NCBI RefSeq assembly: GCF_001278075.1
Contig: NZ_CP011340.1
Span: forward strand, 8,057,501-8,121,500
Direction: 5' to 3'
DNA from: Streptomyces pristinaespiralis
GTDB taxonomy: Bacteria > Actinomycetota > Actinomycetes > Streptomycetales > Streptomycetaceae
DNA: 64,000 bases
The notes beneath the pieces were generated by a model that searched no databases, had not been told where the DNA came from, and saw only the letters and a list, made by a program, of their open reading frames with translations. Each line of letters begins with the position of its first letter. The first letter of the stretch is position 1. The translations under genes and the position numbers were made by a program. Below are positions 52,529-64,000 of the stretch, in pieces.

Positions 52529-53188
52529 TCAGCCCGGACCGCCGGTCCAGTCGAAGGGGAAGTGCTTGCTCGACTTCCCGGAGCGGTCCCAGGAGAAGCC
52601 GTACGCGTCGGCGTGGTCGGTGGTGGCCCGTCCCCAGGTGGCGACCTGGCCCGGCCCGACCTCGGCGCCCGGCGCGTTGTGCACTTGCACCCGTGCCCCT
52701 TCCGGGGTGGTCGGCCCGGTCAGAGCCTCTGCGCTTGCCGACACCCGCCCGGGGATCTCCGCGCGCCAGGTGGCCAGGTCGTCGTCGACCTCGATCCGGA
52801 TGGGGGCGAACTCCATGCCCCGCATCTCGGGGCCGAACATCTCGCCGAATTCAGCGGGCCATCCGCCCGCCTCGCCGCCGAAGATGCTCTGGAGAGCGGC
52901 ACGCTGCTGCTCGTCGGAGCGCTCGTCGAAGAAGACAGCGGCGTACGCGTCGGTGTGCTCGCGGGCCCAGGGGTTGCCCACGAATGAGCCGAGCATCACC
53001 ACATTGAGATCGTCGAGCCGTACATCGCCGAAGTTGCCTTCCCGGATGTGCCAGGCGAGCACCCCTTCGCAGTCGCCGTAAGTCGGAGGCTGCGCGAAAG
53101 TGCAGGGGCACGGAATGGCGCACTTGCACACGTCGAACCAGTCGCCGGCCAGATGCCAGCGTGCATCGGTGATGACCTGTTCTGTCAT
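52529..53188 (-). CDS. DUF1326 domain protein
   Basis: 219 residues from ATG 53188. Trp-His-Leu-Ala-Gly-Asp-Trp-Phe-Asp-Val-Cys-Lys-Cys-Ala-Ile-Pro-Cys-Pro-Cys near residues 11-29 contains the four-cysteine motif of DUF1326, with a second conserved part Gly-Arg-Ala-Thr-Thr-Asp-His-Ala-Asp-Ala-Tyr-Gly-Phe. DUF1326 genes are repeatedly found beside DUF2182 membrane proteins, as here; the pair is suspected to handle metal or redox, but no function is proven. Confidence 0.87.
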   Translation of the reverse strand: MTEQVITDARWHLAGDWFDVCKCAIPCPCTFAQPPTYGDCEGVLAWHIREGNFGDVRLDDLNVVMLGSFVGNPWAREHTDAYAAVFFDERSDEQQRAALQSIFGGEAGGWPAEFGEMFGPEMRGMEFAPIRIEVDDDLATWRAEIPGRVSASAEALTGPTTPEGARVQVHNAPGAEVGPGQVATWGRATTDHADAYGFSWDRSGKSSKHFPFDWTGGPG

Positions 53189-53316
53189 GGCGCTTCCCTC
53201 CCGTCGGGCCCATCGGAGCCCACTCGGAGTGGCGAGCCGCGTGACCCGAGCCCGCTCCCCGGGACGCAAGCGGCTTCCCTTCCATCCTGCGCCTCACCGG
53301 AACAGGAAGCGAGTGG

Positions 53317-54123
53317 CTACATCGACGGCCCGGACATCTGAAGCCCGGGCAGCAGCCCGTCCTGGAACGGAGCGATGACGGCCAGGACCAGGAACGCGAT
53401 GCCGACCGCCCAGGTGAGCCACGGGCCCCACCGCCACAGCTTCTCCAGGAAGATCACCGCCGCCAGCCCGGCCATGGCGGCCAGGTTCATCACACCGAGC
53501 GGGACAAGGACGATCATCAGGCCCCAGCAGCAGCCCACGCAGTAGAGACCGTGGTGCGCGCCCACACGCAGATCTCGGACCCACGGCCGGAAGCGCGCGT
53601 ACCGGACCAGGTGCGCCAGCGGATTCCGGCAGTGGAGCAGGCACACCCGCTTCAGCGGCCCGAGCTGATACAGCCCCGCGAGCAGGAATGCAGCGGCGCC
53701 CAACCAGCGACCCGCACCGGGATGGCCGTCCACAAGACTCCCGATGACGGACAGCGCCCCGTACGCGGCCAGACCGAATGCCGTCCAGGAGAGCAGGTAG
53801 CCGGCGGCGAACTGGGTGATGCGGGCGGCGCGGGCGGCGCCGGCCGACTGCCGGCCGATCGACCGTGCCCAGGCGATGGCCACCGGTGCCACCGAGGGGA
53901 ACATCATCGCCACCATCATGATCACCCACAGCAGCAGGAAGAGAGGTAGCGCCAGCCCCATCGTCCCCGGTTCCATGCCCATGTCGCGGGACTGCGCCAC
54001 CGTGAGGATCCATGCCAGCCCCGCCAGCAGGATCATGAGAATCCACGAAACAGCCAGTTCACGCCCCGGCAGGAGGCTCCTGGACTGTGCCGGCGCGGGG
54101 GGCGCGACGCGGAGTTGAAGCAT
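53317..54123 (-). CDS. DUF2182 integral membrane protein
   Basis: 268 residues from ATG 54123, six to seven transmembrane helices. Met-Met-Val-Ala-Met-Met-Phe-Pro-Ser-Val-Ala-Pro in the second helix is the family signature (MMxAMMxP), followed by Leu-Lys-Arg-Val-Cys-Leu-Leu-His-Cys-Arg-Asn-Pro and Gly-Cys-Cys-Trp-Gly-Leu-Met. The Met/Cys/His content suggests copper or other metal binding. Upstream partner of DUF1326, 128 bases apart. Confidence 0.88.
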   Translation of the reverse strand: MLQLRVAPPAPAQSRSLLPGRELAVSWILMILLAGLAWILTVAQSRDMGMEPGTMGLALPLFLLLWVIMMVAMMFPSVAPVAIAWARSIGRQSAGAARAARITQFAAGYLLSWTAFGLAAYGALSVIGSLVDGHPGAGRWLGAAAFLLAGLYQLGPLKRVCLLHCRNPLAHLVRYARFRPWVRDLRVGAHHGLYCVGCCWGLMIVLVPLGVMNLAAMAGLAAVIFLEKLWRWGPWLTWAVGIAFLVLAVIAPFQDGLLPGLQMSGPSM

Positions 54124-54480: not shown

Positions 54481-54567
54481 TCGGGGCCGGTGGAGGGGAG
54501 GCGTCACCGGCCACCTCGATTCTGGCGGCGTGTCTTGGTGTGGGTGTGTGGGGCTGTGTATGTCGTG

Positions 54568-56937
54568 TTAGTGGGTGGGGGGTGGGGTGGGGGTGTGTTG
54601 GTGGGGGTGGTTGAGGGCGTTGGTGAGGGTGGTGAGGTGGGGGTGGAGGGTGTTGTGGAGGTGGTTGATGGTGGTGTGGATGTGGTTGTGGTGGTGGGGG
54701 GTGAGGTGGTGGTGGGTGATGAGGTCGGCGGTGTGGGGGGTGAGTTGGTTGAGGAGGTAGAGGTTGGTGAGGTTTTTGAGGTGGGTGTGGGTGGTGGGGT
54801 GGGTGGTGTGGTTGAGGGTGGTGAGGAGGGCGTTGGTGGTGTGGAGGGTGGTGTGGAGGTGGGTCATGGTGAGGGCGGGGTTGGTGGCGTTGTTCCAGCG
54901 GGTGTGGGGGGTGTGGGGGTGGGTGGGGGTGTGGAGGGCTTGTTTGGTGCGGGTGTGCCAGATGTGTTGGGCGTGGTGGAGGAGGTTTTTGAGGTGGGTG
55001 AGGTTGGTGAGGGGGTTGGGGGGGGTGGGGGGGGTGGGGGGTGGGGGTGGGGGGTTGAGGAGGAGGTGGGTGGCGGCTTTGAGGGTGATGAGGAGGTTGT
55101 CGCCTTCGGCGGTGATGGTGCCTTCGAGGTGTTGGGTGTAGTGGGCGAGGGGGTTGTGGGGGTGGAGGGCCCAGGCGCCGCAGCGTTCGCGGCAGGTGGT
55201 GGTGATGGTGCGGGCGTGGTGGGTGGTGAAGGCTTTGGTGAGGGCGGTGAGGTGGTGGGTCTGTTCTTTGGTGGGGGGTGGGTCGGTGGGGTAGCGGGGG
55301 TGGGTGGGGTTGGGGGGTGGGGGGGTGCCGTTGTGGTGGTGGTGGGTGTGGTGGTTGAGGGTGTGGCGGTGCAGGAGGGTGAGGGCGTAGGTGGTGGCGA
55401 GGTGGTCGATGAGGGGGGCGTGGTGGGCGCGGTGGGTGGTGAGGGGGGTGGGGGTGTTGTGGTGGGTGGTGTGGCGGTGGTTGGCGTAGTGGACGGCGAT
55501 GGTGAGGGCGGCGCGGGCGGTGCCGGTGGCGGCGGCGCTCATGCAGAGTTTGCCGAGGGTGACGCGGTCGATGGTGGTGAGGAAACGTTTTTGGGGGTTG
55601 CCGTGGGTGGTGTGGTGGGTGCCGTCGGGGTCGAGGCGGTTGTGGGGGGCCTGGAGGAGGGCGGTGGGGGGGAGGCGGACGTGGGTGAAGGTGGTGATGG
55701 CGTGGTCGACGGGGTGGGGGAGGTGGCGGGGTGGGAGGGGGGTGATGTGGATGCCGGGGTGGAGGCCGTTTTCGTCGTGGAGGGGGGTGAGGAAGAGGTG
55801 GATGCCGCGGTCGGTGCCGTCGTGGGTGATGAGGCGGGCGGCGACGAGGGCGGTTTTGGGGCCTCCGGTGGTGGTGGTGTTGGGCATGAATTTCGCGGCG
55901 CCGGGGGTGGGGGTGTGGAGGGTGAAGCCGCCGGTTTCGGGGTCGTGGTGGGCGGTGGTCTTCAGGTGGGCGGCGTCGTTGCCGTGGGCGAGTTCGGTGA
56001 CGAGGAAGGTGCCGGTGTTGCGCAGGGTGGTGTAGGGGGTGAGGTCGCGGTGTTCGGGGTGGTCGTGGTCGAGGAGGGTGCCGAGGAAGAGGTTGTAGTG
56101 GATGCCGGCGAGGGTGCCCAGGGCGCTGTCGGCGATGCCGGTCCATTCGTGGAGGGCGGCGAGGCGGCGGGGGTCGCGGGCGAGGGCGAGGGGGTCGCCG
56201 GCGGCGGTGGCGTTGAGCAGGCGCAGGCGCTGGTAGGAGCGGGCGGTGCGCTGGGTGGGGGTGAGGTCGTCGTCGTGGGTGAGGAATGCGTCGTGGGTGA
56301 TCAGGGTGCGCCAGGGGGTGTGGATGGTGTCCTGTTCGTCGCCGTCGAACAGCAGGTGGCGCAGTTCGCGGGTGACGGCGTCGGTGGTGGCCTGGTCGGT
56401 GTCGTCGTCGCCGGTGGGCCGGCCGGTGGTGCGGCGGGCGGCGGCGGGCGGCGGCGGGGGGAAGAGGGTGGTGGGTGCGGGGGCGGTGACGGGGGTTATC
56501 GGCGACACCGGTCTACCCACCCCCGCCCCCGTCCCGGTGGCCGTGGCTGTGGCTGTTGCGGCCGCGGTGGCCGTTCCCGTGCCGCCGCCCGCTGCCGCGA
56601 CAGTGCCGCCGCCCGCTGCCGCAAGAGTGCCCGCTGCCGCGAGAGTGCCGCCGGCCGTGACCGCGAGAGTGCCCGCTGACGTGACCGCGAGAGTGCCCCC
56701 CGCCGCGGTCGTGGTGGTGACCGTGGTGGTGCCTGCGGTGGTGACCGTGGTGGTGCCCGTTCCCGTGCCGGTGGTTGCTGTTCCCGTGCCCGTTCGGGTG
56801 GCCCCGTTCGAGCCGGTGCCGGTGCCGGTGCCCGCGTTCGTGCCGGGGGCAGCGTTCGTGCCGGCTCCGGTGGCGGGTGGGGTGGTGGGGGTGTCCTGCC
56901 CGGTGGCGGGGGTGGTGGGCTGGGTCAGCAGGGTCAT
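54568..56937 (-). CDS. aco: Acyl-CoA oxidase, avenolide-type (Aco-like)
   Basis: 789 residues from ATG 56937 (GGGAGAG upstream). Residues 1-150 are low-complexity Thr/Gly/Ala/Val repeats; the oxidase starts near 165. Thr-Glu-Leu-Ala-His-Gly-Asn and Phe-Thr-Leu-His-Thr-Pro-Thr-Pro-Gly-Ala-Ala-Lys-Phe match the FAD/substrate motifs of acyl-CoA oxidases, as does Val-His-Tyr-Ala-Asn-His-Arg. The C-terminal 250 residues are extreme in His/Thr/Pro/Leu because the coding strand is almost all C and A. Aco of S. avermitilis is needed for the butenolide signal avenolide; here too it is divergent from a receptor gene, with ARE-like sites between. Confidence 0.8.
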   Translation of the reverse strand: MTLLTQPTTPATGQDTPTTPPATGAGTNAAPGTNAGTGTGTGSNGATRTGTGTATTGTGTGTTTVTTAGTTTVTTTTAAGGTLAVTSAGTLAVTAGGTLAAAGTLAAAGGGTVAAAGGGTGTATAAATATATATGTGAGVGRPVSPITPVTAPAPTTLFPPPPPAAARRTTGRPTGDDDTDQATTDAVTRELRHLLFDGDEQDTIHTPWRTLITHDAFLTHDDDLTPTQRTARSYQRLRLLNATAAGDPLALARDPRRLAALHEWTGIADSALGTLAGIHYNLFLGTLLDHDHPEHRDLTPYTTLRNTGTFLVTELAHGNDAAHLKTTAHHDPETGGFTLHTPTPGAAKFMPNTTTTGGPKTALVAARLITHDGTDRGIHLFLTPLHDENGLHPGIHITPLPPRHLPHPVDHAITTFTHVRLPPTALLQAPHNRLDPDGTHHTTHGNPQKRFLTTIDRVTLGKLCMSAAATGTARAALTIAVHYANHRHTTHHNTPTPLTTHRAHHAPLIDHLATTYALTLLHRHTLNHHTHHHHNGTPPPPNPTHPRYPTDPPPTKEQTHHLTALTKAFTTHHARTITTTCRERCGAWALHPHNPLAHYTQHLEGTITAEGDNLLITLKAATHLLLNPPPPPPTPPTPPNPLTNLTHLKNLLHHAQHIWHTRTKQALHTPTHPHTPHTRWNNATNPALTMTHLHTTLHTTNALLTTLNHTTHPTTHTHLKNLTNLYLLNQLTPHTADLITHHHLTPHHHNHIHTTINHLHNTLHPHLTTLTNALNHPHQHTPTPPPTH

Positions 56938-56992
56938 GGCCTCTCCCGTGGGATAGGGGTCGTCCGGTGGTCTAGGGATGCGCAGGGCCCCA

Positions 56993-57019
56993 AAGATACG
57001 TACCCACCGGTTTTGTTTT
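56993..57019. promoter_or_regulatory. ARE-like element before aco
   Basis: GATACGTACCCACCGGTTTT and the following GTTTT: arrangement of the ScbR/ArpA-type autoregulatory element (GATACNNACC, then CCGGTTT). It lies 56 bases upstream of the acyl-CoA oxidase start. Confidence 0.7.
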
Positions 57020-57125
57020 CAAGGCGTTGAGCGGGTTTCAGGGTGACGTGCGTCACACTCGAGGGCTGTGGTGACGGCATATGCCGGGTTCCACTGCTGG
57101 TCGGACGCGATCATTCCGCTTGAAA

Positions 57126-57170
57126 GGGACCTTTGGGTCCCGTAACTAAAACCGCCATGGTGGTTTGGTT
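57126..57170. promoter_or_regulatory. Hairpin followed by palindromic ARE-like element
   Basis: GGGACC, TTTG, GGTCCC at 57126-57141 is a small inverted repeat. At 57144-57170 the palindrome AAACCGCCATGGTGGTTT, flanked by AACTA and GGTT, has the AAACC/GGTTT half-sites of AREs. Middle of the aco/receptor intergenic region. Confidence 0.55.
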
Positions 57171-57247
57171 GCGGAGTGTTTACGGGTCGGTGCACGGTGA
57201 CGGGGCCGAGGTGCGGTCACGGGCTGGCCGTAGGGCGCTGGGCTGCT

Positions 57248-57274
57248 AAGATACGAACCCGCCGGTTTCTTTTC
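57248..57274. promoter_or_regulatory. ARE-like element before the receptor gene
   Basis: AAGATACGAACCCGCCGGTT followed by TCTTTTC. Same sequence plan as the site before aco (AAGATACG-AACC-CCGGTTT). About 35 bases before the receptor start, suited to autorepression. Confidence 0.72.
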
Positions 57275-57305
57275 GTTGAGTGCGGGGATGTCGGAGGTGG
57301 TGGTG

Positions 57306-57992
57306 ATGGCGCGGCAGGAGCGGGCCGTGAGGACGCGGCGGGCGATTTTGGTGGCGGCGGCCGAGGTGTTCGACGAGGTCGGTTACGAGGCGGCGACCAT
57401 CTCCGAGATCCTCAAGCGGTCGGGTCTGACGAAGGGGGCGTTGTATTTCCACTTCGCCTCGAAGGAGGAGCTGGCGCAGGGGGTGCTGGCGGAGCAGGTC
57501 CACGCGTTGCCGGACCTGCCTGAGGGTGAGTTGATGCTGCAGACGGCGGTGGACCGGGCGCTTTTGCTGGCGCATCTGCTGCGCCGGGACACCGGGGACC
57601 CGATCGTGCGGGGCAGTGTGCGGCTGACGGTGGAGCAGGGGGCGCTGCGGGACGGGCTGGACCGTCGGGTGCCGATGCAGGCGTGGATGGAGCAGACGCA
57701 GGATCTGTTCGAGCAGGCGCAGGCGGCGGGGGAGATCCTGCCGCACGTGGATCTGGTGGGGGCGGCCAAGACGTTCGTGGGCGCGTTCACCGGGGTGCAG
57801 GTGCTGTCGAACATCATGACCGGCCGGCAGGACATGACCGAACGGGTCGCCGATCTGTACCGGTTCCTGATGACGGCGATCGCGGTGCCCGGGGTGCTGG
57901 TACGCCTGGACTTCTCTCCCGGCCGCGGTGTCCTTGCCTACGAAGAGGCCGTCCGCCGCCGCGACGCGGCCCCCCAGCCCGCCGCCCACTGA
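57306..57992 (+). CDS. Gamma-butyrolactone/butenolide receptor-like TetR regulator (ScbR/AvaR1 type)
   Basis: 228 residues. ATG 57306 is preferred (GGAGG 9 bases upstream and Met-Ala-Arg-Gln-Glu-Arg-Ala start like ArpA/ScbR proteins). HTH: Ile-Leu-Val-Ala-Ala-Ala-Glu-Val-Phe, Ile-Ser-Glu-Ile-Leu-Lys-Arg-Ser-Gly-Leu-Thr-Lys-Gly-Ala-Leu-Tyr-Phe-His-Phe. The Gly-Leu-Thr-Lys-Gly-Ala-Leu-Tyr-Phe-His-Phe recognition region is diagnostic of butyrolactone receptors, and the ligand domain keeps the tryptophan in Gln-Ala-Trp-Met-Glu. Probably represses aco, itself and downstream regulators until the signal binds. Confidence 0.88.
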   Translation: MARQERAVRTRRAILVAAAEVFDEVGYEAATISEILKRSGLTKGALYFHFASKEELAQGVLAEQVHALPDLPEGELMLQTAVDRALLLAHLLRRDTGDPIVRGSVRLTVEQGALRDGLDRRVPMQAWMEQTQDLFEQAQAAGEILPHVDLVGAAKTFVGAFTGVQVLSNIMTGRQDMTERVADLYRFLMTAIAVPGVLVRLDFSPGRGVLAYEEAVRRRDAAPQPAAH

Positions 57993-59446
57993 CCCACCCC
58001 ACCCACCCGCCCCTTCTTCTCCCGTCTTCCTTGCCGCCGTCCGGACCCCCGGGCGGCCGCCGTCGTTTCGTCCCGCACCGCCCACCGGCCGGGCCTGGGG
58101 GCGGCCGTGTCTTCGTTGTGTTCCGGTCTGGGCCGCGCCCCATGCTTGGGGGCGGCCGTGTCTTCGTGCCTTCGCTCCGCCGGCCACGCCCCGGGAGGGG
58201 CCGGGGTTGCTTCGCCGTCCGGGATCCCCGGGCGGCCGCGGTCATTTGGTCCCGCACCCGCCCACCGGCCACGGAGGCGGCAGCGGTCATGCACCCGCCC
58301 ACCGGCCGGGCCTGGGGGCGGCCGTGTCTTCGTTGTGTCCCGGCCTGGGCCGCGCCCCATGGGCTTGGAGGGCGGCCGTGTCTTCGTGCCTCCGCTCCGC
58401 CGGCCATGCCCCGGGCGGGGCCGGGGTTGTGGGCATTTCCCGGTCCGCCGCTGTCGTGGTGTCGGCCTGCCCGCCTGCGGGCCGGTTTGTGGGCGTCTTC
58501 CCGACGGGTGCGGCAGTTTCGCCGTGCTCGCGGCTGCTGTGCCCGGTCCGGGGCCGGTCTTGCGGGCTGTACCTGCGGTCCTGTGGCGTCGCCGTCGTGC
58601 CTCGGGCTTCGTGGTGGCGGAGCGTCGTGGTGGGGCCGGGCTGCTCCAGGGTCCGTGCCTTGTTCCTCCGGTCTTCGGGCGGGCCGTTCCCGCTCCCGGC
58701 CGCGTGCACGGCCGGCTCCCTTGGGCGGGTCGTGCGCGGCTTGTTCGCCGTTGGCCCGTGTCCCGGCCGGAGGGTCTGTCCGGGGCGCTGAGGCCCGCGT
58801 GTTCGCCGCCTGCCGCGTACCGGGGCCGTCTTGGCCGCGTCACCGTTGTCGGGCCTGTGCGCCGGCGTAGCGGCCTGGCGACACCGCCGCTGCACCGCCT
58901 GTTGGGCCTTTTGGTCCGGGCGCGCTCTGGTGTCGGCGCGGCAGCGGGCCGCCGTGCCGGCAGGCGGCCTCCGGCCGCGAGCGCCCGCCGTGGCCTGTGT
59001 CGTGTCTCGGGGCTGGAACACCCGGGGGAGTCCGTTCCTGCAGGGTGGTGTGTCCGTGCGGCCGGTCCCGGGGGTGGGCGCGGCTGCGCCGCGTCCACCA
59101 ACCCGCCCGCCCCGCACAGCTCGAGAGTTCCGCCCGCCGTCCCGCCGTCCCGCCCGTCCCGCACGGTTCGCACAGCTCGAGGGTCCGCCCGCCGTACCAC
59201 TCCGTACCGCCGCGTCCCGCCGTCCCGCTGTCCTGCTGTTCCTGCTGTGTCGGCCCGGTGGGGTCCTGGGCTGCGCCGCACCGGCCGGTCTGTCGTCCGG
59301 TCGCCCCTGGGGGTCGGGGCCCGGGGCGCCGGGACCTTGGGGTCGGGGGGTGGGGGTGGGGTGCGGGGGTGCGGGGGTGGGCAGGGTGGCGGTGCGCGCC
59401 GTGGGGCGCGGGTTCCGAGGGAGCCTGGACGGAAGGGGAGTTGGCC
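57993..59446. other. 1.45-kb intergenic region with tandem repeats
   Basis: No gene with supported start, motifs or codon pattern was found between the receptor and P450 genes. The region is very G+C-rich and has imperfect duplications at 58037-58430 and a 26-base pair of direct repeats (CGCACAGCTCGAG type) at 59113 and 59169. It may be decayed sequence or a non-coding spacer. Confidence 0.55.
58037..58430. repeat. Imperfect tandem duplication
   Basis: Unit A 58037-58210 and unit B 58215-58430 align over their whole length with scattered changes; unit B has a 37-base insertion at 58271-58307 that copies CCCGCCCACCGGCC. Each unit itself holds GGCGGCCGTGTCTTCGT twice, so this 17-mer occurs four times. 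Confidence 0.8.
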
Positions 59447-60766
59447 ATGGAGATCGACACGGACGTGGATGTGGACGTGGATGTGGATGTGGAGTCGGGT
59501 GGGGAGTCGGTGGGGTGTCCGTACGCGCTCGATGTGACGGGGCGTGATCTGGCGGGAGAGGCGGCCATGCTGCGGGAGCGGGGGCCGGCCGCGCGGGTGA
59601 TGCTGCCCGGCGGGGTGCGGGCGTGGGCGGTGACCGGACACGAGCCGCTCAAGCGGCTGTTGACGGACAGACGGGTCTCCAAGGACGCGGGCCGGCACTG
59701 GCCGGCGTTCGTCGAGGGGCGGATCACGCCGCAGTGGCCGCTGTACCACTGGGTGTCGGCCCCCACGATGCTGTTCGCCTACGGGGAGGAACACACCCGG
59801 CTGCGGCGGCTGGTGGCCGGGGCGTTCACCGCGCGCCGCAGCCGGGAACTGGCGCCGCGGATCGAACGGATCACCGCCGCCCTGCTGGACGAGATGACCC
59901 CCACCGCCCCCACCGGTGCCGATGGCGGTGAGGGGGTGGTGGATCTGCGGACGGCGTTCGCGAAACTGCTGCCGATGCGGGTGATCTGTGAACTGTTCGG
60001 TGTCGAAGGACCCGACCGGCAGGCCCTGTGCGCGGCGATCGACACCACTCTGGGCACCTCGGTACCGGCCGACGAGATGGCCCGGGCCCAGGACCGGGTG
60101 ACCGAACTGCTGGCCGCGCTGGTCGCCCGCCGGCGCGCCGAGCCCGGCCCCGACCTGACCTCCGCGCTGATCGCCGCCCGCGACGGCGGGGAACGGCTGA
60201 GCGAACAGGAACTGATCTCGACCCTGAACCTGATGATCGGCGCCGGCCAGGAGACCACCAGCAACCTGATCAGCAACGCGGTCGCCGCCCTGCTCTCCCG
60301 GCCCGCCCAGCTCGAACACCTGCGCGCGGGCCGCGCCGACTGGCCCGACGTGATCGCCGAGACCCTGCGCACCCACAACCCCGCCGCCTACATCCCCCTG
60401 CGCTACGCCGTCGAGGACATCGACCTGGACGGCGTCCTCATCCGCAAGGGCGACGTGATCATCGTGTCCTTCGCCGCCGCGGGCCTGGACCCCGCCCGGC
60501 ACGGCAAGGACGCCGACACCTTCGACCTGCTGCGCCCGCACGGCGAGAGCGTCGCCTTCGGCCACGGCGTCCACTACTGCCTGGGCGCCCCGCTGGCCCG
60601 CCTGGAAGCCACCATCGCCCTGTCCGCGCTCTTCGCCCGCTTCCCCGGCATACGCCTGGCCCGCCCGGTCGGCGACCTGCAGCCCCTCGAGTCGTTCATC
60701 ATCAGCGGCTACCGCACCCTGCCCGTCCACCTCGGACCCCCCACCACCACACCGGCCACCCCCTGA
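59447..60766 (+). CDS. Cytochrome P450, avenolide Cyp17 / tylosin Orf18*-like context
   Basis: 439 residues from ATG 59447 (GGGGAG upstream). I-helix Gly-Ala-Gly-Gln-Glu-Thr-Thr, ExxR as Glu-Thr-Leu-Arg, and heme loop [10 protein letters not shown] with Cys378 are all present, so a working P450 is expected. Residues 3-16 are a repeated Asp-Val acidic tail coded by a GTGGAT-type DNA repeat. A P450 beside aco and a receptor gene matches the avenolide locus, where the P450 hydroxylates the signal precursor; that role here is inferred from context. Confidence 0.85.
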
Positions 60767-61276
60767 CCCGCCACACCGACCCCTGACCTCGTCCGGGGGC
60801 CGGGCCTGCGAACCCCTGACGAGGCCCGCCCCGGACCGCGCCCCCGGCACCGGACCGGGCGGGCCTGCGATCCCTGACGAGGCCGGACCGGGCCCGCCCC
60901 CGACCGGCCGGGCCCTGCCCCCCGGGACAGGCCGGGCCTGCCCGGGGGCAGGGCCCGCGCCGCGGCCCCCGGGACAGGCCCGCGCCCGGACTCTTCGCCG
61001 CGCCCCGGGGGTTGACCGCCGGCCCCGCCGCCCCGATGCCCCGCGGTGCGGCGGGTGCGGCGGGGCCGTGCCCGTCCCGGGGCCGTGCCTGTCCCAGGGG
61101 TGCGGGTGCGGGTGCGGGTGCGGTCCCGGGCGTCGGGGCGGGTGCGTGGTCCCCGGGACACACGGCCCCGTCCCCGGGGGGCCGTCTGTCCCGGTTCCCG
61201 GCCCCGTGCGCGGGGTGCGGGGCGGGTGGCCAGGGGCGGAGCGGGCGGGGATGCAGCGGAATCCCCTCACCCACTT
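60767..61276. other. GC-rich intergenic region
   Basis: 510 bases, almost all G and C, with many short repeats of GGCCGGGCCTG and CCCGGGACAGGCC type. No gene seen. It ends in the ARE at 61277-61298. Confidence 0.5.
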
Positions 61277-61298
61277 ACAAACCGCGTAAGCGGTTTGT
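61277..61298. promoter_or_regulatory. Palindromic ARE before the second TetR gene
   Basis: ACAAACCGC, GTAA, GCGGTTTGT: perfect 9-base arms, the most symmetric ARE-like site of the window. It lies about 145 bases before ATG 61442. Confidence 0.78.
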
Positions 61299-61441
61299 TA
61301 ATCTTGGGTGTCGTCCCGCGGCCGGTGGGGGAGCGGGGCATGGCGTGTGCCGCCCGGTGTCCGGGTCTCCGCCGTGCGGGGTGAGCGCAAGGGGCGGGGC
61401 GTGTGTGCGGTCCGCCGTCCGTCAGTGAGGGGATCGCTGCG

Positions 61442-62065
61442 ATGGTCAAGCAGGAGCGTGCGGCCCGCACGCGGCAGGCGCTGGTGCGTGCCGCGGCCGA
61501 AGTGTTCGCGCGGGAGGGGTTCGCGCCCGCTTCGCTGGCCGTCATCAGTGCCCGGGCCGGGGTCAGCAACGGGGCGCTGCACTTCCACTTCGAGAACAAG
61601 AACGCGCTGGCGCGGGCGGTGGAGCAGGAGGCGGCCGAGCGGCTGGGTGTGATCATCGCGCCCGGTCCGGTGCTGCCGGGCGGGGCGCTGCAGGCGCTGG
61701 TGGACGCCACCCATGTGCTGATGGGCGCGCTGGCCGACGACGTGGTGGTGCGGGCCGGGTTCGACCTGAGCGCGGACCCGTCCCGGCCCGGCGGCCCGGA
61801 CCTGCGCGGGGTGTGGCGGGGCTGGGTCGAGCGGATGCTGCACGACGCCGAGCGGGAGGGCCACCTGGCCGAGGGCCTGTCCTCGCGCGGTGCCGCGCCG
61901 GCCGTCGTCGCGGCCACCGTCGGCTTCGAGGTGCTGGGCGCCGCGGACCGCGAATGGCTGTCCGCATGCAAGATCACCGGCTTCTGGGAGTTGATGCTGC
62001 CCCGCCTCGCCCCCGGCCTGCCCATCGTCCCCGCCGGCCCGCACGGCACCCCCACCCCCCAATAG
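61442..62065 (+). CDS. Pseudo-receptor-type TetR regulator (AvaR2/ScbR2/TylQ class)
   Basis: 207 residues from ATG 61442 (GAGGGG 9 bases upstream). Starts Met-Val-Lys-Gln-Glu-Arg-Ala-Ala-Arg-Thr-Arg-Gln-Ala-Leu, with HTH Leu-Ala-Val-Ile-Ser-Ala-Arg-Ala-Gly-Val-Ser-Asn-Gly-Ala-Leu-His-Phe-His-Phe. The Val-Ser-Asn-Gly-Ala-Leu-His-Phe-His-Phe form, instead of Leu-Thr-Lys-Gly-Ala-Leu-Tyr-Phe, is typical of ScbR2/TylQ/JadR2 pseudo-receptors, which often sense antibiotics rather than butyrolactones. Probably represses the following SARP gene. Confidence 0.85.
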   Translation: MVKQERAARTRQALVRAAAEVFAREGFAPASLAVISARAGVSNGALHFHFENKNALARAVEQEAAERLGVIIAPGPVLPGGALQALVDATHVLMGALADDVVVRAGFDLSADPSRPGGPDLRGVWRGWVERMLHDAEREGHLAEGLSSRGAAPAVVAATVGFEVLGAADREWLSACKITGFWELMLPRLAPGLPIVPAGPHGTPTPQ

Positions 62066-62226
62066 CAGACCACCCGCCCTGTTTCCTGTGGCGCCCGTCC
62101 GGACGCCAGCCTCCACCCGACCGCCCGCACCACCCCCTTACGCCCCGTTTTCGCCCCACTCCGGTCGGGCCGTTCGGATGCGGCGGCGCGAAACACCTCC
62201 CAGAAAACAGCACGAGCGGTCTTGTA

Positions 62227-62255
62227 TTGACAAACCGTCCGTCCTGTTTTTTACT
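62227..62255 (+). promoter_or_regulatory. SARP promoter overlapped by an ARE
   Basis: TTGACA at 62227-62232 is a good -35; a T-rich -10 region follows 17 bases later. The ARE-like sequence ACAAACCGTCCGTCCTGTTT fills the spacer (62230-62252), so a bound receptor would block RNA polymerase. About 95 bases before the SARP start. Confidence 0.65.
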
Positions 62256-62348
62256 CGGTGGTGTCCGGCTGCTCACGCGGGCCGGGTGTGCTGCGGCCGG
62301 CGTGCTGCGGTGAAGGCGTGTGCGTGATTTCGACACAGGGGAGACGGC

Positions 62349-63251
62349 GTGGACATCGATGTGCTGGGGGAGCTGGCCGTCAGGGAGAACGGGGTCTCGG
62401 TGACCCCCACGGCGCCCAAACCGCGCCAGGTGCTGGCCCTGCTGGCGCTGCACGCCGACCGGGTGGTGCCGGTGGCGTCGCTGACCGAGGAGCTGTGGGG
62501 GCAGCGGCCGCCGCGCAGCGCGCGCACCACGCTGCAGACCTACGTCCTGCAGCTGCGGGAGCTGATCTCGGCGGCCCTGGTCCACGACACCCCGCCGGAC
62601 ACCCCGCCCGGCACGCCGCCCGGCACGCCGCCGGGCACCGTGGCGGGGGGCGGGCACGGCACGCCGCGGGGCGGGCGGCGCAGCGCCAAGGACGTGCTGG
62701 TGACCTCGCCGGGCGGCTATCTGCTGAACACCTCCGGCGGCACCAGCGACGTGCGCACCTTCGAGCTGCTGGCCGGGCAGGGATACCGGGCGATGGACGC
62801 CGGGGACTTCGCCGGCGCCGCCCGCCAGCTGCGGGAGGCACTGGCGCTGTGGACCGGCTCCGCGCTGGCCGGGGTGCAGAGCGGGGTCCTGCTGGAGATG
62901 CACGCACGGCGCCTGGAGGAGACCCGGCTGTGCGCGCTGGACCAGCGCATCGAGGCCGACCTGCGCCTGGGCCGCCACCGCGAGCTGCTGGGCGAACTGA
63001 CCGTCCTGGTCAGCCGCTACCGCACCCACGAGAACCTGCACGGCCAGTTCATGCTCGCCCTGCACCGCTCCGGCCGCCGCAGCGAGGCACTGGAGGTCTA
63101 CCAGCGGCTGCGCGCCGCCCTCGTGCGCGAGCTGGGCCTGGAACCCTCGGCCGCCCTGCGCCGCCTGCAGCGCTCGATCCTGATGGCCCACCCCGAACCA
63201 CAGCTCGAGCCCGCCCCCCGCACCGGCGAGCGGCTGAGCCGGGCCGGCTGA
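62349..63251 (+). CDS. SARP family pathway-specific activator (AfsR/DnrI/RedD type)
   Basis: 300 residues from GTG 62349 behind GGGGAG. N-terminal OmpR-like winged helix (about 1-100: Pro-Lys-Pro-Arg-Gln-Val-Leu-Ala-Leu-Leu-Ala-Leu; Leu-Trp-Gly-Gln-Arg-Pro-Pro; Leu-Gln-Thr-Tyr-Val-Leu-Gln-Leu-Arg), broken by a Pro/Thr/Gly insertion at about 80-105, then the bacterial transcriptional activator domain (Leu-Arg-Glu-Ala-Leu-Ala-Leu-Trp-Thr-Gly; Gly-Arg-His-Arg-Glu-Leu-Leu-Gly-Glu-Leu). Short SARPs of this type, for example TylS, activate antibiotic clusters. Control by the ARE upstream is likely. Confidence 0.92.
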   Translation: MDIDVLGELAVRENGVSVTPTAPKPRQVLALLALHADRVVPVASLTEELWGQRPPRSARTTLQTYVLQLRELISAALVHDTPPDTPPGTPPGTPPGTVAGGGHGTPRGGRRSAKDVLVTSPGGYLLNTSGGTSDVRTFELLAGQGYRAMDAGDFAGAARQLREALALWTGSALAGVQSGVLLEMHARRLEETRLCALDQRIEADLRLGRHRELLGELTVLVSRYRTHENLHGQFMLALHRSGRRSEALEVYQRLRAALVRELGLEPSAALRRLQRSILMAHPEPQLEPAPRTGERLSRAG

Positions 63252-63520
63252 CACCACCCCCGGCCCGGCCCGCGCCGACCCGGCTCCGGAATCGGGCCCA
63301 CGGTCCGGGTCCGGAATTCCGGTACGCGGCCGGCCACCGGATGCGGCACGCGGCACGCGATCCGCACGGGCGTACCGACCACACAGCAAGACCCGACCTC
63401 GGCAGAGGCAACCACCCACGCGCCGCCGGCGCGCAGGCGCCAGGGGTCACCAGGGGCAAGGGCCGGCCCGAAAACAAGGAGGGCCGGCAGGTGAACGGGG
63501 AAGAGAAAGGGGAAACCGGG

Positions 63521-64000
63521 ATGCAGGCCAGATCGGAGCGCACCCGCCGCAGGCTGGTCCTCGCGGGCGCCCAGATGTTCGACCGGTACGGCTACGCCAG
63601 TGCCACACTCGGCCAGATCGCCGGCGCCGCCGGCATGACCAAAGGCGCGCTGTACTTCCACTTCGCCTCCAAGGAAGGCCTGGCCGACGCCGTCCAGGAA
63701 CGCGGCCGGCAACTGCTGTGCGACTTCGTCCAGCAGCAGTGGGAGGCTGGCGCCGCCCCCCTGCAGGCACTGATCGACCTCACCCACTGGCTGGCCGACG
63801 CCCTCTACCAGGACCCCGTCGTACGCGCCGGACTGCGCATCACCAACGAACGCGCCGGCCGCCACCCCGCCGCCACCGACTTCCACCAGACCTGGATCAC
63901 CGAGGTCCTGCGGCTGCTCGGCCAGGCCGCCGCCGCCGGCGACCTGCGCGAGGACGCCGCGGGCGAAGGCGGCCAGAGCCTGCTGACCGCCGCCGTCTGC
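63521..64000 (+). CDS. Butyrolactone-receptor-like TetR regulator, cut by window end
   Basis: 160 residues visible; ATG 63521 follows GGGGAA, with GTG 63491 as alternative. HTH: Leu-Val-Leu-Ala-Gly-Ala-Gln-Met-Phe, Gly-Gln-Ile-Ala-Gly-Ala-Ala-Gly-Met-Thr-Lys-Gly-Ala-Leu-Tyr-Phe-His-Phe. The Thr-Lys-Gly-Ala-Leu-Tyr-Phe-His-Phe motif again marks the receptor class. A third family member in the same island, comparable to AvaR3 or to the several srr receptors of S. rochei. C-terminus lies outside the window. Confidence 0.85.
   Translation, partial: MQARSERTRRRLVLAGAQMFDRYGYASATLGQIAGAAGMTKGALYFHFASKEGLADAVQERGRQLLCDFVQQQWEAGAAPLQALIDLTHWLADALYQDPVVRAGLRITNERAGRHPAATDFHQTWITEVLRLLGQAAAAGDLREDAAGEGGQSLLTAAVC

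Follow-up and report, generated by a model that had tools for sequence, protein, structure and literature searches.

The stretch of DNA analyzed here, called the window (64,000 nucleotides; positions 8,057,501–8,121,500 of the 8,532,592-bp contig NZ_CP011340.1), carries the pristinamycin regulatory region of Streptomyces pristinaespiralis, a locus that is already published. We are highly confident that it is an autoregulator locus in which an avenolide-type butenolide arises via SnbX and SnbU, acts on SpbR at ARE sites, and is relayed to the pristinamycin genes. In this scheme, SnbX (an acyl-CoA oxidase) and SnbU (a P450) would help to make the butenolide; SpbR would repress snbX, spbR, and downstream regulators through ARE sites; binding of the signal would release SpbR from DNA; and PapR5, PapR3, and the SARPs would relay the signal to the pristinamycin genes that start just past 64 kb. 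The exact ligand, the role of SnbX in making it, and the repression of snbX by SpbR are parts of the scheme that we infer. The features of the locus are listed in Table 1.

Table 1. Features of the butenolide-type regulatory locus and of the adjoining repeat edge, in window positions
Feature	Position	Strand	Evidence or detail
snbX, acyl-CoA oxidase (Aco/Orf18 homologue)	54568–56508	−	gene calling, profile search, homologue comparison
ARE-like operator, upstream of snbX	56994–57020	+	motif scan against shuffles
ARE-like operator, upstream of spbR	57249–57275	+	motif scan against shuffles
spbR, butenolide-type receptor, AvaR1-like	57306–57992	+	profile search, pocket comparison
snbU, P450 (Cyp17/Orf16 homologue according to the available part of PMC7554373)	59447–60766	+	gene calling, Pfam; 1,320 bp
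papR5, ScbR2-type regulator lacking the residues that contact avenolide	61442–62065	+	profile search, pocket comparison
SARP activator with BTAD domain, probably papR4 (name inferred from position)	62349–63251	+	profile search
papR3, third ScbR-type regulator, 215 aa	63521–64168 (window-equivalent; overruns the window end at 64000)	+	profile search
Right-arm terminal inverted repeat, innermost part, running on to the chromosome end	54565–64000		mirrored-arm identity
Stretch of snbX absent, in frame, from the left-arm copy	54685–55329	−	residues 537–751 of the 789-aa form; EGDN at 611

The earlier note had described six genes with the oxidase divergent from a ScbR-type receptor, and gene calling and profile searches reproduced these genes in the same order and orientation, with snbX (−) divergent from spbR (+). 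With the NCBIfam profile ScbR_bind_reg (cutoff 150 bits), three TetR proteins passed: SpbR scored 204.7, PapR5 176.7, and PapR3 160.3 when limited to its in-window portion and 183.8 at full length. Genome-wide, six of the 81 matches exceeded this cutoff, and these were only SpbR, PapR5, and PapR3, each in two copies. The locus was equated with that of Handel, Kulik and Mast (2020; PMC7554373, cited throughout from the part of its text available to us) on the basis of the species, the snbX/spbR/snbU/papR5 neighbourhood, the size of snbU, which equals the one given there, and a nearby carboxyltransferase. That paper places snbU between papR5 and spbR, snbX downstream of spbR, and snbS, snbW, and snbV beside the regulatory genes, upstream of papR3. 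A new, uncharacterized cluster was rejected as an interpretation because the locus is already in print. Between spbR and snbU, 1.4 kb (57993–59440) contained no gene call but repeated GGGGCGGCCGTGTCTTCG pieces. Plasmid records gave 72 matches, none covering 80% of the query, and the 20 listed matched mainly the SARP and receptor genes.

SnbX matched the Pfam families ACOX and ACOX_C_alpha1, both above cutoff. An alternative ATG start at 56937 would extend the 646-aa form to 789 aa by an N-terminal tail rich in Thr, Ala, and Gly; matches in other genomes mostly began at about residues 35–60 of the 646-aa form. A protein recorded under the name S. pristinaespiralis was 100% identical (rounded), differing in the N-terminal tail and a few residues. 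The EGDN motif of SnbX (residue 611) aligned with the EGEN and EGDN motifs in two acyl-CoA oxidases of known structure and was present in all of the 120 homologues listed (the best 120 of 1136); its glutamate is presumably the catalytic base. SnbX relatives (E ≤ 1e-30) were found in 55 of 150 Streptomyces genomes, including that of S. pristinaespiralis. The C-terminal part of SnbX (residues 537–789) consisted of 17% His and 22% Thr and the near-identical protein P0001, over its whole length, of 11% His and 22% Thr; the medians for the 120 listed homologues were 4.7% and 7.8%. Within 54568–56508, the third codon position was 89% C and 0.2% T.

The oxidase and P450 genes both lie beside the receptor gene, as in avenolide-type systems. 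Of 80 P450 loci selected by name, two contained homologues of SnbX and SpbR together at the thresholds applied, namely those of Streptomyces sp. WAC05374 (L009) and S. alkaliterrae (L010). The aco–receptor–P450 order recurred in both, their P450s were 62–65% identical to SnbU, and in S. alkaliterrae a PapR5-like gene followed the P450. SnbU is reported to be 63% identical to Cyp17 (PMC7554373). The aco–avaR1–cyp17 locus of S. avermitilis resembles ours in combining oxidase, receptor, and P450 (according to PMC7554373), in an ARE at the oxidase gene, and in the receptor pocket residues, the likeness of Aco and Cyp17 being as published. It differs in residue 130 of the receptor (His in AvaR1, Gln in SpbR), in the unusually His/Thr-rich SnbX, and in the antibiotic controlled. 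The orf18*–tylP–orf16* genes of S. fradiae (tylosin) form the same three-gene core according to PMC7554373 and the available table of PMC7347384 (the AvaR1 structure paper; eLife 2020, likewise cited from its available part); an S. fradiae oxidase (P0082), possibly Orf18*, was among the listed SnbX homologues at 48%.

The snbX–spbR intergenic region contained two ARE-like sites, one of them in the oxidase promoter as expected of an avenolide-type locus, and none occurred in shuffled sequences. Paired sites were also present in L009, L010, and L106. Sites scoring above 18 were found in all 11 aco loci of the set L123–L133 versus three of the 55 P450 loci L034–L088; this control covered 55 of the 80 P450 loci, and L012, among the other 25, has two sites above 18. 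Of the five aco loci from L123–L133 with sites shown, three (L124, L125, and L129) had one site only. Using a matrix built from only two sites, we detected no ARE above shuffled background before papR5, the SARP gene, or papR3 (best score about 13, shuffles up to 19.3). Contrary to this null result, PMC7554373 reports binding of SpbR at the promoters of papR5 and papR4, at that of spbR itself, and at those of most of the papR genes.

In PMC7554373, where snbX was named and snbU was the gene mutated, extracts of the snbU mutant failed to prevent DNA binding by SpbR, PapR3, and PapR5, and the receptor ligand was alkali-stable, as avenolide is. The mutant produced twice as much pristinamycin IA and approximately 40% more IIA; since pristinamycin went up rather than down, the signal does not work simply as an inducer. 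This result counts against the proposed mechanism, as does the lack of a detectable ARE before papR5, the SARP gene, and papR3.

A search for AfsA (PF03756) gave no match in the S. pristinaespiralis genome. Because the built-in controls of that search also gave no match, the same search was run across the genus as a control: 48 of 61 Streptomyces genomes matched, with S. pristinaespiralis among the 13 that did not (48 of the 60 others). A gamma-butyrolactone system of the AfsA kind was rejected on this basis; the earlier note had seen no AfsA-type synthase in the window, and none was found in the rest of the genome, including the DNA beyond 64 kb. A-factor and SCB gamma-butyrolactone systems share the TetR receptor and the ARE logic with this locus, but AfsA/ScbA belongs to them and was not found here. 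The same note's proposal of a butenolide-type signal made by an Aco/P450 pair is supported by the AvaR1-like pocket of SpbR described below, the AREs, and the snbU-dependent, alkali-stable ligand (PMC7554373), with the limit that the signal does not act as a simple inducer. The note was right about the content of the locus and very probably about its function.

A metabolite cluster beyond 64 kb, which had been predicted, was present: the next 77 kb showed the content expected of the pristinamycin cluster. It encodes a carboxyltransferase, an MFS transporter, a DegT aminotransferase, an AMP ligase, an ornithine-cyclodeaminase-like enzyme, a P450, a PabAB-like enzyme, and another SARP, with support from Pfam: of ten proteins searched, all but two gave a match at 1e-10, and one of those two is a 73-aa fragment truncated where the locus stops. 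Inspection of the translations by eye also showed large PKS/NRPS genes and an HMG-synthase-type cassette. We take products encoded past 64 kb to be HpaA, SnbA, PipA, and PapA.

The comparison of SpbR with AvaR1 that the note had called for gave 73% identity. To compare ligand pockets, we used eleven AvaR1 positions from PMC7347384 (64, 85, 88, 108, 127, 130, 131, 158, 161, 162, and 165); some helix residues are numbered one off in that paper, and we adopted the numbering that agrees with the PDB sequence at all 11 residues. SpbR keeps 10 of the 11 residues, avenolide contacts such as Gln64, Thr108, and Trp127 among them, the exception being Gln for His at position 130. PapR5 and PapR3 lack Gln64, Thr131, Phe161, Thr162, and Gln165, and at the lactone contacts (Gln64, Thr162, and Gln165) they carry Ala/Val/Glu and Gly/Cys/Gly, respectively. 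PapR3 has Gly64, Val161, Cys162, and Gly165, and PapR5 and its five homologues share Ala64, Thr161, and Val162. Only Leu88 and Trp127 are common to SpbR, PapR5, and PapR3 among the eleven positions.

Receptors were surveyed in fourteen aco loci (L009, L010, L106, and L123–L133) and four loci without aco (L012, L030, L033, and L047). The full pocket was readable in 12 of the 14 aco loci, and all 12 had Gln64, Leu88, Thr108, Trp127, Phe161, Thr162, and Gln165, as in SpbR. In the incomplete L106 receptor, the four readable positions agreed with this set; L131 gave none. Positions 85, 130, 131, and 158 varied. Each of the four receptors without aco keeps part of the set and differs from it in at least one residue among positions 64, 88, 108, 161, and 162. 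Thr131, which in AvaR1 contacts the C10 hydroxyl of avenolide, is kept in SpbR and was found in only one of the 12 aco-linked receptors (L128), a further point against the proposed mechanism.

These pocket differences bear on whether SpbR, PapR5, and PapR3 all sense one identical avenolide-type signal, a reading that we rate as quite possible, somewhat short of even. Its support is experimental: gel shifts of all three receptors were prevented by wild-type extract but not by snbU-mutant extract (PMC7554373). Against it stand the five AvaR1 residues missing from PapR5 and PapR3, together with the loss of Gln64 and Thr162 in all five PapR5-like homologues, although Gln165 is kept in two of the five and two of these homologues are only 32–36% identical. 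Judging from sequence, the pocket split speaks against all three receptors sensing one butenolide in the AvaR1 manner, and, as the lactone-contact residues are absent, PapR5 and PapR3 may not sense the signal of SpbR, contrary to PMC7554373; the available text of that paper itself does not commit to a single molecule for all three.

Comparison of the chromosome arms revealed that the locus lies at the inner edge of a terminal inverted repeat. Window positions 55330–64000 were identical to the mirrored left arm; the same was true of the 77 kb that follow and of three 20-kb pairs taken as samples, including one at the chromosome ends. The compared part of the pristinamycin cluster (55330–64000 plus the next 77 kb) is thus duplicated exactly. 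Positions 54565–54684 also matched exactly between the arms, on the far side of a 645-bp gap where left-arm sequence is missing, and positions 1–1500 were single-copy. The repeat begins at 54565, 3 bp past the snbX stop, and near 419883 in the left arm, giving sizes of 420,528 bp (right) and 419,883 bp (left). Just inside the unique region, 52529–54036 (−) encodes a DUF1326 protein and a PpoB2-type copper chaperone; these stretches matched several of the 61 Streptomyces genomes and are uninformative on the aco locus. The 645-bp gap is an in-frame deletion in the left-arm snbX, flanked by 13-nt repeats (GTTGTGGTGGTGG), that leaves a protein of 574 aa, compared with 789 aa, without the EGDN motif; PF01756 matched once in the genome, in the right-arm SnbX only.

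The repeat as such is known, as the available part of PMC6158609 mentions that strain HCCB 10218 has long terminal repeats; together with the SPRI locus tags, these make HCCB 10218 the likely strain of the window. Our literature search found a single paper on snbX in this species and nothing on a repeat edge at snbX or a short snbX allele. The locus in PMC7554373 comes from strain Pr11, and we found no mention of a terminal duplication or a short second snbX in its available text. Appendix 1-table 2 of PMC7347384 lists SPRI_RS34860/34865/34870 and SPRI_RS01560/01555/01550 as putative butenolide systems; by locus tags and gene order, these two loci fit the two arms of one duplication. What we add to a known locus is small: the recognition that the two listed loci are arms of a single duplication, the damage to the second snbX, and the split among receptor pockets, none of which we found in the literature available to us.

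Combining the deletion with the pocket comparison, it is conceivable, if rather doubtful, that the locus is split twice, with only the right-arm SnbX keeping EGDN and only SpbR having a butenolide pocket; PapR5 and PapR3 would then respond to another ligand, one that is secondary or depends on snbU. It is unlikely that the duplicated arm and the short snbX are assembly artefacts of a single locus with one snbX. A 420-kb repeat does exceed ordinary read length, and both ends of the deletion fall in low-complexity GTGGTGG DNA, where they share 13 identical nt; however, the inner flanks of the two arms differ, the deletion lies at most 0.8 kb from the edge and so within reach of single long reads, and the terminal repeats of HCCB 10218 are named in PMC6158609. 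Moreover, a second S. pristinaespiralis oxidase record, marked partial, ends one residue before the SnbX end, which fits a contig stopping at the same repeat edge. Very improbable is the idea that SnbX and SnbU have catabolic or tailoring roles and merely lie beside regulators, with the SpbR ligand coming from elsewhere. In its favour, no purified product of either enzyme was found in the available literature, and SnbU shows similarity, at scores under the NCBIfam cutoffs, to several families of tailoring P450s. Against it stand the ligand loss in the published snbU mutant, the synteny with L009 and L010, the ARE-like sites at aco loci, and the conserved aco-linked receptor signature; a catabolic oxidase was rejected in view of the mutant, the AREs, and the synteny.

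The analysis ties the locus to an antibiotic-control system already in print, and its status is revised to known. With the signal read as an avenolide-type butenolide made via SnbX and SnbU, the pocket comparison offers a way to test directly whether it is sensed by one or more of the three receptors, and by which. In a strain with the duplication, a single insertion disrupts one of two snbU copies; since the published snbU mutant lost the ligand, its strain presumably had one copy or lost both, and snbU knock-outs would need a copy check. If the locus is indeed split twice, loss of the right arm end could abolish signal synthesis, as only the right-arm SnbX keeps EGDN, while the receptor and antibiotic genes would persist in their other copies.
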